Assembly (NCBI RefSeq): GCF_009363895.1
Contig: NZ_CP045434.1
Coordinates: 2,973,291-3,037,290, forward strand
Length of the DNA: 64,000 bases
Origin: Sphingomonas ginsengisoli An et al. 2013
GTDB taxonomy: Bacteria > Pseudomonadota > Alphaproteobacteria > Sphingomonadales > Sphingomonadaceae
Direction: 5' to 3'
Notes under the pieces: model-generated
Databases searched by the model: none
The model's input: the letters and a program-made list of their open reading frames with translations, nothing else
Told to the model about the DNA's origin: nothing
Translations under genes and position numbers: made by a program
Part shown: in pieces, positions 8,976 to 43,806 of the stretch
How positions within the stretch are numbered: position 1 is the first letter of the stretch
How the letters are laid out: every line of letters begins with the position of its first letter

Positions 8976-10037
8976 ATGGAAGTGAAGGCCGATGCGCTCG
9001 AACAGTCGTTCGACGACGTGAATTTCGAAGAGATTGGAATCTCGCTCAAGGAGGAACTCGAACTGCTCAAGAATCGCCTGGCCGACAGCCAGAACGCCGC
9101 CCTTCGCCCCGCCCTCGACGGGGTGAAGTCCGCCGAGAATTCGGCATTTGTCGAGCGCTTCCTGCGGCGCGGGATCGATAGCGATCTGGAAGCCAAGTCG
9201 GCCGACAATTCGTCGGGCGGCGCAGGCGGTTACGCCATTCCCCGCGATATCGACGAACAGATCGACCGCACGCTGGTGACGCTGTCGCCGATCCGCGCCA
9301 TCGCCAACGTCGTCAAGGTCGGCAGCTCCAACTATCGCAAGCTGATCACCACCGGCGGCGCGCCGTCTGGCTGGGTCGGATTCGAGGCGGCGCGACCCGA
9401 GACGGGAACGCCGACCTTCACCGAAGTGGTCCCGGCGAGCGGCGATCTCTACGCCAATCCGGCCGCGTCGCAGCACATGCTCGACGATGCCATGTTCGAT
9501 GTCGAAGCTTGGCTGGCGAACGAGATCGCGGTTGAATTCGCTCGGGGGGAGGGCGCGGCGTTCATCAAGGGCACCGGCGTCAACCAGCCGCTCGGCTTCC
9601 TGTCGTCGCCGACCGCAACGACCGCCGACGGGGCCCGCCCGATGGGCACGCTGCAGACGATCGGGACGGGGGTCGCCGGTGGCTTCCCGGCAAGCTCGCC
9701 AGCCGACAAACTGATCGACCTCGTTCAGAGCTTGCGTCAGCCGTATCGCCAGGGCGCGGTGTTCGTGATGAACAGTGCGACCGCGGCGACGATCCGCAAG
9801 TTCAAGACCGCGGACGGCGCGTTTATCTGGCAGCCCGGCATGGTCGCCGGCCAGCCCTCGAGCCTGCTGGGTTACCCGGTGATCGAAGCCGAAGACATGC
9901 CCGACGTGTCGGCCAACAGCCTGTCGGTCGCGTTCGGCAACTTCAAGGCGGGCTACATCATCGCCGAGCGCAGCGAGACGAGCATCCTGCGCGATCCCTA
10001 CACCAAGAAGCCCTATGTTTATTTCTACGCGACCTAG
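8976..10037 (+). CDS. HK97-family phage major capsid protein (C-terminally truncated)
   Basis: A 353-residue major capsid protein. An N-terminal coiled-coil-like delta domain (SLKEELELLKNRLAD) is followed by the HK97 fold: SGGAGGYAIPRDID, IRAIANVVKVGSSNYRKLI, MLDDAMFDVEAWLANEIA, FIKGTGVNQPLGFL and LGYPVIEAEDMPD. GTG/GGGAG ahead of the ATG at 8976 supports that start over 8946. The protein stops at KPYVYFYAT, whereas GTA-type capsids as I remember them continue for about 15 more residues (a KRVGGGV-like end). The stop codon is followed, in the same frame, by DUF2793 sequence, so the gene end appears to be a deletion junction. Confidence 0.88.
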   Translation: MEVKADALEQSFDDVNFEEIGISLKEELELLKNRLADSQNAALRPALDGVKSAENSAFVERFLRRGIDSDLEAKSADNSSGGAGGYAIPRDIDEQIDRTLVTLSPIRAIANVVKVGSSNYRKLITTGGAPSGWVGFEAARPETGTPTFTEVVPASGDLYANPAASQHMLDDAMFDVEAWLANEIAVEFARGEGAAFIKGTGVNQPLGFLSSPTATTADGARPMGTLQTIGTGVAGGFPASSPADKLIDLVQSLRQPYRQGAVFVMNSATAATIRKFKTADGAFIWQPGMVAGQPSSLLGYPVIEAEDMPDVSANSLSVAFGNFKAGYIIAERSETSILRDPYTKKPYVYFYAT

Positions 10038-37180: not shown

Positions 37181-37303
37181 GGCCTCTTCTTAACAAGCTG
37201 TTCCGGAGCGGGTCATCACTTTCGCTTGAAGAGGCTCAAGCAAAGCCCGATATAGGTGTCTGCTCGGGGAGTGTCGTCGAGGCCCCCCGGAAAAGGAGAG
37301 ACA

Positions 37304-38041
37304 ATGTCGAACTGGTCTGACCCGCGCACGACGACCGCCGCGCAACCCGCCGCCACGGTGGGTGTCCCGCGTGCCGCCCGCGACGTGGGCCTGCGGTCCT
37401 ACATGCTGAGCGTTTACAATTACATGGCGTCGGGTGTGCTGCTGACCGGCATCGTCGCCTATGCGCTGGCCGCGAGCGGCTTCGCGCAAGCCATCTTCTT
37501 CAACGGCGGCATCCTCCGCTGGGTGTTCATCTTCGCCCCGCTGATCATGATCATGATCATGGGCGCAAGCATCCAGCGCATGTCGACCGGCGCGACCCAG
37601 GCGTTCTACTGGGCGTTCGCGGCGGTGATGGGCGTGTCGATGTCGGTCATCCCGCTGATCTACAGCGGCACCAGCATCGCCCAGACCTTCTTCGCCACCG
37701 CGGCGGCGTTCCTCGGGCTGTCGCTGTGGGGCTATTCGACCAAGAAGGACCTGTCGGGTTTCGGCACCTTCCTGATCATGGGTGTGGTCGGGCTGATCGT
37801 GGTCATGCTGCTTAACCTGTTCATCCGTTCGGATGCGTTGAGCATGGTGATCAGCGCGGTCGGCGTGCTGCTGTTCGCGGGCCTCACCGCCTACGACACG
37901 CAGAAGATCAAGAGCATCTACGCCCAGGTCGCGGGTAGCGACATGGTCGGCAAGTCGGCCGTGCTGGGCGCGCTGACGCTCTACCTGGACTTCATCAACA
38001 TGTTCCAGTTCCTGCTGAGCTTCATGGGCGACCGCCGCTAA
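37304..38041 (+). CDS. Bax inhibitor-1/YccA family membrane protein
   Basis: A 245-residue integral membrane protein with seven hydrophobic helices (for example YMASGVLLTGIVAYALAASG, WVFIFAPLIMIMIMG, AFYWAFAAVMGVSMSVIPLI, LTAYDTQKIKSIY near the C-terminus). The D-T-Q-K-I and the paired acidic/basic loop are the BI-1 signature; relatives form proton-regulated calcium leak channels or interact with FtsH. ATG at 37304 set by AAGGAGAG. A terminator follows. Confidence 0.92.
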   Translation: MSNWSDPRTTTAAQPAATVGVPRAARDVGLRSYMLSVYNYMASGVLLTGIVAYALAASGFAQAIFFNGGILRWVFIFAPLIMIMIMGASIQRMSTGATQAFYWAFAAVMGVSMSVIPLIYSGTSIAQTFFATAAAFLGLSLWGYSTKKDLSGFGTFLIMGVVGLIVVMLLNLFIRSDALSMVISAVGVLLFAGLTAYDTQKIKSIYAQVAGSDMVGKSAVLGALTLYLDFINMFQFLLSFMGDRR

Positions 38042-38401: not shown

Positions 38402-38472
38402 CGGTAGGCGCCTAAGTCGCTCGCTCGCCTTGCCTTTCGGCGTGCAATGCCCATTTCGTCGCTTCACTCGCG

Positions 38473-38501
38473 CGCCCGCTCGTCCCGAGCGGCGTCGAGG
38501 G
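38473..38501. repeat. Partial copy of dispersed repeat C
   Basis: CCGCTCGTCCCGAGCGG followed by CGTCGAGGGA matches one arm of the inverted repeat at 63653-63742. It lies just upstream of uvrA, and the apparent N-terminal extension of the uvrA reading frame from 38430 runs through it, so that extension is not protein coding. Confidence 0.5.
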
Positions 38502-38537
38502 ATTGCCTCCGGAACGAATTGGGAACAAACTCACTTC

Positions 38538-41576
<3,039 letters not shown>

Positions 41577-41660
41577 GGAAGGGTGTTGGATCAGCAAACT
41601 CGCTTACGTTATCGCCCCTATTGAGCGGCTAGCGCATTTGTATACCGTGCAGCCGCCGAG

Positions 41661-42188
41661 ATGGGGGTGTGTTTGTCCGTTGTCACTACTGCCGAGACCG
41701 ACATCAAGGAGCGGCTCTCGTTAGGTGTGGTTACTTTGGTCGCAGCGAGAGCGGGGTGCGAGGTCTGCGAAATCAAGGTCGATAGAACATCGCGAGATGT
41801 TAGCATCAGCCCCATAGACGGTGAGATCGTGCAAATCGATGCTCAGCTGAAATCCACAATAAATTTGATCGATGCTGGAGATAAATTCAAATTCGATCTT
41901 CCCGTGAACAATTATAATAGACTTCGCGCCACCAATGTGGGCAACGCTCAGATCTTAATTGTTTTAGATCTACCGAGATCGTCTGTCGATTGGCTATCGG
42001 TTTCAGCTGCTCAAGTAGTGCTTAAAAGGTGTGCGTACTGGGCCAGCTTGTACGGCGCTCCAGAAAGGGAAAGTGGCTCGACGGTGCGTATCGAGTTTCC
42101 AAAGTCGCAGGTTTTTACCCCCGAGGCTTTGATAGATATCATGACCCGACGTTTCGAACGTATCAAACAACATCACGGAGGCTTCTGA
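41661..42188 (+). CDS. DUF4365 domain-containing protein
   Basis: A 175-residue protein. Its order of conserved parts follows DUF4365: an N-terminal helix (IKERLSLGVVTLVAARAGCEV), a D-x-Q-x-K core (IDAQLKST at about 51-58), NYNRLRATN, ILIVLDLP, LKRCAYWASLYGAPE, STVRIEFPKSQVFTPEAL. I recall DUF4365 as part of the PD-(D/E)xK nuclease-like superfamily; the core fits that, but this is recollection and the usual D/E-x-K is a Q-x-K. Overlaps the next gene by one base (TGATG). Low GC and likely transferred. Confidence 0.7.
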   Translation: MGVCLSVVTTAETDIKERLSLGVVTLVAARAGCEVCEIKVDRTSRDVSISPIDGEIVQIDAQLKSTINLIDAGDKFKFDLPVNNYNRLRATNVGNAQILIVLDLPRSSVDWLSVSAAQVVLKRCAYWASLYGAPERESGSTVRIEFPKSQVFTPEALIDIMTRRFERIKQHHGGF

Positions 42189-43318
42189 TGGAACGCCTCA
42201 ATAGAGACATCAGCGCAAACACGGACATCTCGCTTAGTTCGCTCAAAGCCTACTTGGAGAACTCGGGGTACAAGCGTCGCGAGCAATGGGGCAGCTTTCT
42301 CGAAAGGTTCTCAAGGAAGCGTGCTGGGCGTGAAGACAATGTCCTTTTGCCGACGCAAAGTGAGCTGGTCGATTATGAAAAGCGAGTTTCAGACCTAGTC
42401 GACGCCCTCTCTCGTCAGCTTAAATTGCCCACGCCACTTTTGCTTAAGCAAATAGCAAACGCTGGATACGAGGTAGTTCGTATCATCGCCAATGAGGGTG
42501 AGACGCAGAGTACTCTCGCGTACGACGCGGCGATAGATTTGCTTCGTGGCGGCTACGCCTTAATTGACTCATCAGCCGTGGTGGCAATCTCTAGCAATGA
42601 CCTCCGCACGATACGTGGTCGCAGGCCTGACATTGTTCGTCGTTATCTAGATGGGGTGCGCGTCGGACAGACGGAAGTCGGCAGCTTCGTCATGACACTT
42701 TTGATGCCAGTTGCCGCCGATGGAGTGGCACTGGACTTACCCCCAACGGTCGCAGACCGCTTCGGTACAAAGGTCGCGGAGCGAATGTCGTCGGCATTGG
42801 GAGGTACGCATTCTGCTGTTCGATCAGGAGAAATGACAATCGCCGAGCTTACAGCGAAGGGAATAACTGCGAATTTCAGTGCGGGCTTAGCAAGGATGGT
42901 TGAAGCAGTAGGCGACGTAACCTTAAGTATTGCTCCCACACTCCGAGACAACAAACAATTGAGGCCCACGCTTAGCACTTTTCACTATGACGATGTGAAG
43001 AGGCTCCGTCAGATTGAACATCAGTTAACACCCCCAGAACACCAGCGAGAAATGTCACTGAGTGGAACAGTTATTAACATCAGCGAGCCGCGGGGCAAAG
43101 TGAGCGGCGTGATTGTCCTCAAGTCCGAAGTTTTTGGCGAGGAAAGACCAGTCAGAATTAAATATGATCGCTCGGATCGTTCGACAATAATGGAAGCCAT
43201 GGCGAGAAAGTCTGACGTGTATCTGGCGGTAGATGGATCACTTACTTCTCGTGGTGGGCACTATCGACTGGACGAGCCGCATGACTTCAGAATTGTAGGT
43301 CGCGGCTCGCTGGCTTGA
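42188..43318 (+). CDS. Hypothetical protein, partner of the DUF4365 gene
   Basis: A 376-residue protein I do not recognise by name. Visible parts: an N-terminal block SSLKAYLENSGYKRREQWGSFLERF with charged residues and VLLPTQSELVDYEKRVSDLV (about 15-75); a middle helical region (about 80-260); and a C-terminal small beta-barrel-like domain (SLSGTVINIS, GVIVLKS, RPVRIKY, DVYLAVDGSL, DFRIVGRG; about 290-376). No signal peptide or membrane helix. Start ATG at 42188 overlaps the DUF4365 stop, so the two are translationally coupled. It has the low GC and rare codons of the island. Confidence 0.6.
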   Translation: MERLNRDISANTDISLSSLKAYLENSGYKRREQWGSFLERFSRKRAGREDNVLLPTQSELVDYEKRVSDLVDALSRQLKLPTPLLLKQIANAGYEVVRIIANEGETQSTLAYDAAIDLLRGGYALIDSSAVVAISSNDLRTIRGRRPDIVRRYLDGVRVGQTEVGSFVMTLLMPVAADGVALDLPPTVADRFGTKVAERMSSALGGTHSAVRSGEMTIAELTAKGITANFSAGLARMVEAVGDVTLSIAPTLRDNKQLRPTLSTFHYDDVKRLRQIEHQLTPPEHQREMSLSGTVINISEPRGKVSGVIVLKSEVFGEERPVRIKYDRSDRSTIMEAMARKSDVYLAVDGSLTSRGGHYRLDEPHDFRIVGRGSLA

Positions 43319-43461
43319 ACAAACTTTCACGCGATGCAAATCGGATTTCAGCTCGGACGGTAGATTCGGCCGCAGCGATGAGAGATGGCCCGATGGCCTT
43401 CAAGCCACACCGCCCAAAGTCCCACCGGGAACGCGCCGCCCCCGCCACCCGTTCTTCACCC

Positions 43462-43701
43462 ATGGCCTTTACCCAGCTCGATCCGCCCGTGCCCGTCCAT
43501 GTCCTCGACCGCGGGAGCGGGATGGCGTTTGCGGTGATCGACTATGGGCCAGAGTTCGACCTCCTCTGGGTCACCGGCATGGACGAGGGCGGCGAGGTGT
43601 GGTGCGTCCCCAATCCGCAGGTCCGGCTCCAGGCCAACTGGTCGATGGGCCGCAAGAAAGCCGCCGGCAAAGTCCCCAACCTCGCCGCCATCGCCGGCTA
43701 G
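43462..43701 (+). CDS. Small hypothetical protein
   Basis: A 79-residue protein beginning MAFTQLDPPVPVHVLDRGSG and continuing GMAFAVIDYGPEFDLLWVTGMDEGGEVWCVPNPQVRLQ. GC-rich and core-like, so it lies outside the low-GC island. The frame runs back to 43315 and includes a similar MAF start at 43393; the later start fits better, and the intervening residues look unlike protein. No function is visible. Confidence 0.6.
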   Translation: MAFTQLDPPVPVHVLDRGSGMAFAVIDYGPEFDLLWVTGMDEGGEVWCVPNPQVRLQANWSMGRKKAAGKVPNLAAIAG

Positions 43702-43717: not shown

Positions 43718-43806
43718 GTCACCCCGGACTTGATCCGGGGTCCCGCTTCTTGCCTTTTCACCTTCCCAAAAAAGAAGCGGGATGCCGGATCAGGTCCGGC
43801 ATGACG
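43718..43806. repeat. Dispersed inverted repeat, type A, copy 2
   Basis: GTCACCCCGGACTTGATCC...GAAGCGGGATGCCGGATC...GCATGACG, nearly identical at both ends to the element at 1530-1614, with a different centre. The arms pair imperfectly (GGGGTCCCGCTTC with GAAGCGGGAT). Confidence 0.8.

Follow-up and report, generated by a model that had tools for sequence, protein, structure and literature searches.

A PDC-M02 candidate defence pair in a slot for foreign-composition DNA downstream of uvrA in Sphingomonas ginsengisoli

Introduction

In Sphingomonas ginsengisoli, two genes of unusually low G+C content lie directly downstream of the repair gene uvrA, raising the question of what their products do and how they came to be located there. 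We analysed this island within a 64,000-nucleotide stretch of contig NZ_CP045434.1 (positions 2,973,291 to 3,037,290), here called the window, whose coordinates are used unless a locus is named. A preliminary description had proposed a horizontally acquired, undescribed two-gene defence module consisting of a nuclease-like DUF4365 protein (protein A) and an unrecognised coupled partner (protein B). The underlying observation was confirmed and its interpretation was partly supported. By sequence comparison, the pair is a member of the PADLOC-DB v2 candidate type PDC-M02, and it occupies a family-wide slot for DNA of foreign composition. The explanation we slightly favour is a horizontally acquired PDC-M02 anti-phage module in which A would be a latent nuclease and B its sensor and activator, with an abortive outcome of infection.

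Results and discussion

The gene pair matches candidate type PDC-M02

PDC-M02 is defined by an A model and a B model matched by adjacent genes on one strand, which is the arrangement found here. Protein A matches PDC-M02A (at least 24 models, among them PDLC04278 with E 2e-51), while residues 1-376 of protein B align with positions 1-377 of the 377-position PDC-M02B model PDLC04314 (E 2.9e-216), thus covering B over its full length. None of the features compared sets the pair apart from PDC-M02. Contrary to the preliminary description, the match of both proteins rules out an undescribed system and gives B a recognised family. PDC stands for 'phage defence candidate' according to PMC11514479, and the antiviral role of PDC-M02 has candidate status only. 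In the text of the literature searched, neither the name PDC-M02 nor a test of this type was found.

The sharp drop in G+C after uvrA is as first described, with values of 0.492 for A and 0.523 for B compared with 0.678 for the whole window. The pair as a unit has a G+C of 0.514, and the lowest 1658-nt window (0.511) coincides with its site, which makes it the composition minimum of the window (lowest value elsewhere 0.627). G+C at third codon positions is 0.53 in both genes versus 0.92 in uvrA, and a hand count agrees with 26 of 60 G+C at 41821-41880. The A stop codon TGA and the B start codon ATG have one base in common, again as noted before; the pair ends at 43318 and not at 43390. For A, TTG 41673 is a likelier start than ATG 41661 because the database copy (P0024) has 171 aa, the N-termini of relatives align there and a GGGGGTG stretch lies just before it. 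Translation from ATG 41661 would yield a protein of 175 aa (41661-42188).

Protein A is a predicted DREN nuclease

The DUF4365 assignment of A holds (PF14280, residues 17-162, 55.9 bits against a cut-off of 24.3), the IDAQLKS core is present, and the Pfam scan found no second domain. The predicted structure adopts the DREN fold with a PD-(D/E)xK core, also found in EcoRV-type restriction endonucleases and archaeal Hjc resolvases, and keeps the nuclease residues. Predicted active-site residues D46, Q62 and K64 are retained in all 51 alignment rows; catalytic roles for the D/Q/K residues of DREN are described in PMC12205087. Judging from the model, the predicted active site of A is complete, in line with the nuclease-like effector that had been proposed. 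Its best structural matches are collateral SPARDA nucleases, with restriction enzymes and Holliday-junction resolvases also among the matches. Together, the intact catalytic residues and the SPARDA match suggest that A cuts DNA.

A shares its DREN fold and D/Q/K catalytic residues with SPARDA, and the general layout, a nuclease with a separate partner protein, is alike too. However, A is a lone 175-aa domain without APAZ, and B has no Argonaute among its listed matches and ends in a predicted OB-fold. The lack of APAZ in A rules out membership in SPARDA.

Protein B carries a predicted OB-fold and a conserved motif

No Pfam match for B was obtained at E values up to 10, nothing in NCBIfam scored above any cut-off, and a B profile gave no significant match against PDB sequences. 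The AlphaFold2 model (predicted local distance difference test score 84.3) bears out the earlier description of a 376-residue coupled partner ending in a small β-barrel: the barrel is predicted to be an OB-fold and appears similar to DNA binders in structure comparison. Foldseek searches with B reached a best E value of only 0.02, the matched proteins being mostly of the OB-fold type. Argonautes were missing from the 50 structural matches listed, which is no proof of their absence. Residues G160, Q161, T162, E163, G165, S166 and F167 are present in 36/36 alignment rows, and in a 43-row set including more distant copies Q161, E163, S166 and F167 remain conserved at 90% or more.

These features also bear on an explanation that we consider unlikely, namely a type IV-like restriction system in which B would recognise a modification or structure of invader DNA and A would cut that DNA only, leaving the host unharmed. 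The PD-(D/E)xK fold, the restriction enzymes and resolvases among the matches of A and the resemblance of the B OB-fold to DNA binders are all consistent with such a system, as is a copy on an Entomospira plasmid that adjoins three DUF262 genes. However, collateral SPARDA nucleases, not restriction enzymes, are the best structural matches of A, and neither Pfam nor NCBIfam recognises a domain in B.

Pairing is conserved while distribution is patchy

Relatives of B were gathered independently of A from 12 named genome loci, three viral contigs (two near-identical) and six plasmid records (two alike); with further loci from genome scans and the present window, 26 distinct loci were obtained. An A gene lies immediately upstream of B on the same strand in 24 of them, answering the question of conserved pairing raised by the preliminary description and supporting the layout of a two-gene defence module. 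In one exception (L005) the B gene lies 115 nt from a contig end. The other, on a Pigmentibacter ruber plasmid (L024, 7600-9113), is a natural B-only copy in which B is open and A has been lost but for its last bases; judged by eye, the fragment in its place resembles a nearby annotated IS6-family transposase. B is only a fragment at one paired locus (L006) and runs off the contig at another (L019). At 14 of the 24 paired loci the overlap between A and B is one or four bases, the other ten comprising one seven-base overlap, one 15-base gap and eight cases with a B start that is ambiguous from the open reading frame (ORF) alone.

Overlapping genes would also fit a toxin-antitoxin-like arrangement, where A would be an active nuclease and B its bound inhibitor, with phage infection removing or titrating B and thereby freeing A. 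The P. ruber plasmid, having lost most of A while keeping B open, is what would be expected if A were the dangerous partner. Nevertheless, we regard this arrangement as improbable: B, which we take to be large for an antitoxin, has no antitoxin family match in Pfam, and the isolated DREN domain is inactive in NbaSPARDA according to PMC12205087, so that an inhibitor would not be needed.

Judging from record titles, hosts of PDC-M02 belong to the Alphaproteobacteria, Gammaproteobacteria, Myxococcota, Actinomycetota and Spirochaetota, the phylum placement of the 12 named genome loci being presumed. Counting the present genome, B was found in 4/397 family genomes, 4/385 class genomes and 1/61 genomes of a smaller scan, a patchy distribution typical of mobile defence genes. 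A first contig scan of genomes with B alone gave no confirmed match, and annotated phages gave none at 1e-5. B is absent from all 36 other genus genomes of the 61-genome scan, in line with the proposed horizontal acquisition.

A second PDC-M02 pair lies directly 3' of uvrA in a Sphingomonas metagenome-assembled genome (BIN22, L007, 6269-11098), with the uvrA stop at 9385 and A beginning at 9450. Since its A and B are only 50% and 36% identical to the present proteins, PDC-M02 probably entered the uvrA site more than once. The three other family copies (L233-L235) have no uvrA within their 1.5-kb flanks. On plasmid p28 of Entomospira culicis (L026), an Abi family gene, recombinases and toxin-antitoxin genes are found farther along from the PDC-M02 pair and its DUF262 neighbours.

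The region downstream of uvrA is a family-wide slot

The region after uvrA (41577-43455) is a slot for foreign-composition DNA throughout the family, probably the Sphingomonadaceae. In the closest relative (G464), whose uvrA is 94% identical and in which a 96% identical 81-aa gene occupies the same place after it, the same flanks enclose an unrelated low-G+C pair (L052, 3197-4880) encoding a 230-aa methyltransferase-like protein and a second protein, of 338 aa, that matched nothing. To anchor the comparison, the C-terminal 358 aa of uvrA were used, which match at 1e-150 or better in 99/99 genomes of the order; within the genus, 56/71 genomes match at 1e-140 or better and the other 15 show partial or distant matches. 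Downstream DNA was sampled from 20 plus 20 further genus members, 40 other members of the family and 20 genomes from other families of the order.

A slot was scored as foreign in composition if the 1.5 kb next to the uvrA stop contained an 800-nt stretch with a G+C more than 0.10 below that of the genome's hemW. This was the case in 23/30 family genomes outside the genus, compared with 0/60 hemW flanks (first control, Fisher p 1.3e-15) and 2/60 flanks of a second conserved gene (37298-38038). At thresholds of 0.08 and 0.12, 24/30 and 20/30 slots were positive versus 4/120 and 0/120 control flanks. When the uvrA tail served as the reference instead, slots were positive in 27/40 genomes in the family, 16/40 in the genus (leaving out L192, which meets a contig end) and 4/20 in other families. 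Boundaries were analysed in 29 slots picked for low G+C near uvrA. In 25 of these, G+C drops by more than 0.08 from the final 300 nt of uvrA to the first 300 nt past its stop; no boundary motif is common to the 29, the best 8-mer occurring in three.

The 81-aa gene, which has no Pfam match, was found in 24/61 genus genomes. Among 20 seven-kb neighbourhoods of this gene, uvrA is also present only in the closest relative. To judge from its coordinates in three genomes (G015, G030 and G465), the 81-aa gene lies there on the strand opposite to uvrA and no more than about 4 kb downstream of it.

Slots of relatives carry other defence genes

Slot cargo was collected from 48 loci in which an ORF with a G+C below 0.575 begins no farther than 2.6 kb from the uvrA stop, to which one locus (L109) was added by eye; the slot loci analysed were L052, L102-L110, L122-L161 and L183-L201. 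When all 79 low-G+C slot ORFs were scanned together against PADLOC, the 25 commonest families among the matches listed were all of the ATPase type. Single-protein scans covered 40 of the 49 slots (all except L129, L140, L142, L146, L157, L160, L184, L189 and L195), using one or two proteins each, mostly the longest ORF; L143, L155 and L196 contain a longer ORF than the one scanned singly.

Matches to known or candidate defence families at 1e-10 or better were obtained for 21 of the 40 scanned slots, several of them being generic OLD/AAA ATPases. Eleven slots reached 1e-60 or better (L103, L108, L109, L124, L128, L138, L145, L147, L150, L199 and L201). They include a CBASS cyclase with a 2TM effector (L103), PDC-M31 (L108), HEC-07 (L109), PDC-S06 (L124), dCTPase (L128), HEC-06 (L138), AbiLi (L150) and the reverse-transcriptase systems UG13a, Drt8, Drt9 and UG20 (L145, L147, L199 and L201). 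A further slot (L107) encodes an AriA-like ATPase with a weakly DUF4435-like partner. Not all cargo adjoins uvrA: the CBASS pair begins 1.2 kb past the uvrA stop, after a 346-aa ORF of ordinary G+C, and other cargo begins 0.5-1.8 kb past it. In the same 30 genomes, 101 hemW-flanking ORFs (mean 257 aa, some cut by the locus end) gave no PADLOC match at 1e-10, a control that represents ordinary neighbours and not foreign DNA elsewhere.

Such cargo argues against a non-defence function, in which a repair or plasmid-maintenance pair would lie near uvrA by chance. Having uvrA as a neighbour is suggestive of repair, and repair proteins also have OB-folds and resolvase-like folds. However, besides the CBASS, DRT and other defence genes in the same slot of relatives, the absence of B from 36/36 other genus genomes and 393/397 family genomes and the family copies without uvrA in their flanks make this very improbable. 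A conserved repair partner of uvrA is ruled out by the absence from relatives.

Literature on uvrA, hotspots and anti-phage defence islands contained no mention of a uvrA slot among the matches listed, and as far as searched the family-wide uvrA defence slot is unreported. Lying beside a universal repair gene, it can be mined for defence systems. The foreign-composition proteins scanned singly in the remaining 19 of 40 slots have no PADLOC match at 1e-10 and are therefore candidates for undescribed systems. Six slots encode large proteins of this kind (513-817 aa; Table 1), candidate undescribed defence genes, one of which (L194) has a SIR2-like start as judged by eye.

A proposed mechanism

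The slightly favoured anti-phage module builds on the intact catalytic residues, predicted OB-fold, conserved coupling, patchy distribution and hotspot location of the gene pair. In it, A would be a latent DREN (DUF4365) nuclease held by the front part of B, which contains the conserved GQTExGSF motif, while the OB-fold of B would bind phage-derived or single-stranded nucleic acid. Upon this trigger, B may assemble or release A, bringing A subunits together. Activated A would then cut DNA, and the infected cell would die or stop, protecting the population. Sensing by B and activation by assembly are suggested by analogy, and the abortive outcome is likewise conjectural. Weighing against any ready claim of defence, two other PDC candidates were inactive in one native host, as stated in PMC12409345.

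More specifically, and as a tentative proposal that we hold to be slightly more doubtful than probable, PDC-M02 may represent a 'SPARDA without Argonaute'. A DREN collateral nuclease would be controlled by a protein sensor of a new class, in which an OB-fold is combined with an otherwise unplaced α/β module bearing the GQTExGSF motif, and the pair would be carried as one cargo of an unreported, family-wide, defence-swapping slot 3' of uvrA. PDC-M02 was known as a candidate type; it now gains a sharper and concrete mechanism proposal, in which a new kind of trigger would control a DREN nuclease, in addition to the uvrA slot.

Coordinates and additional features

Table 1. Positions of the gene pair, its flanks and large proteins of other uvrA slots
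Feature	Sequence	Positions	Strand	Remark
uvrA, left flank of insertion slot	Window	38430..41576	+	1048-aa ORF
A, DUF4365/DREN nuclease, PDC-M02A	Window	41673..42188	+	Alternative start ATG 41661
B, PDC-M02B partner, 376 aa	Window	42188..43318	+	One-base TGATG overlap with A
Codons of B motif G160-Q-T-E-V-G-S-F167	Window	42665..42688	+	
Codons of predicted B C-terminal OB-fold (residues 284-376)	Window	43037..43315	+	
81-aa conserved gene	Window	43456..43701	+	Right slot flank in present species and closest relative G464
Large slot protein	L106	674-2455		
Large slot protein	L110	504-2144		
Large slot protein	L122	3112-4650		
Large slot protein	L151	716-2407		
Large slot protein	L183	486-2936		
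Large slot protein	L194	2128-4551		

A search for repeats and for promoter-like or terminator-like sites gave nothing clear (counts of 3 versus 1.3 ± 0.9 and 3 versus 2.3 ± 2.1 in shuffles). Downstream of the 81-aa gene, a 28-nt inverted repeat is located at 43724-43799, its arms being 89% complementary and 20 nt apart.
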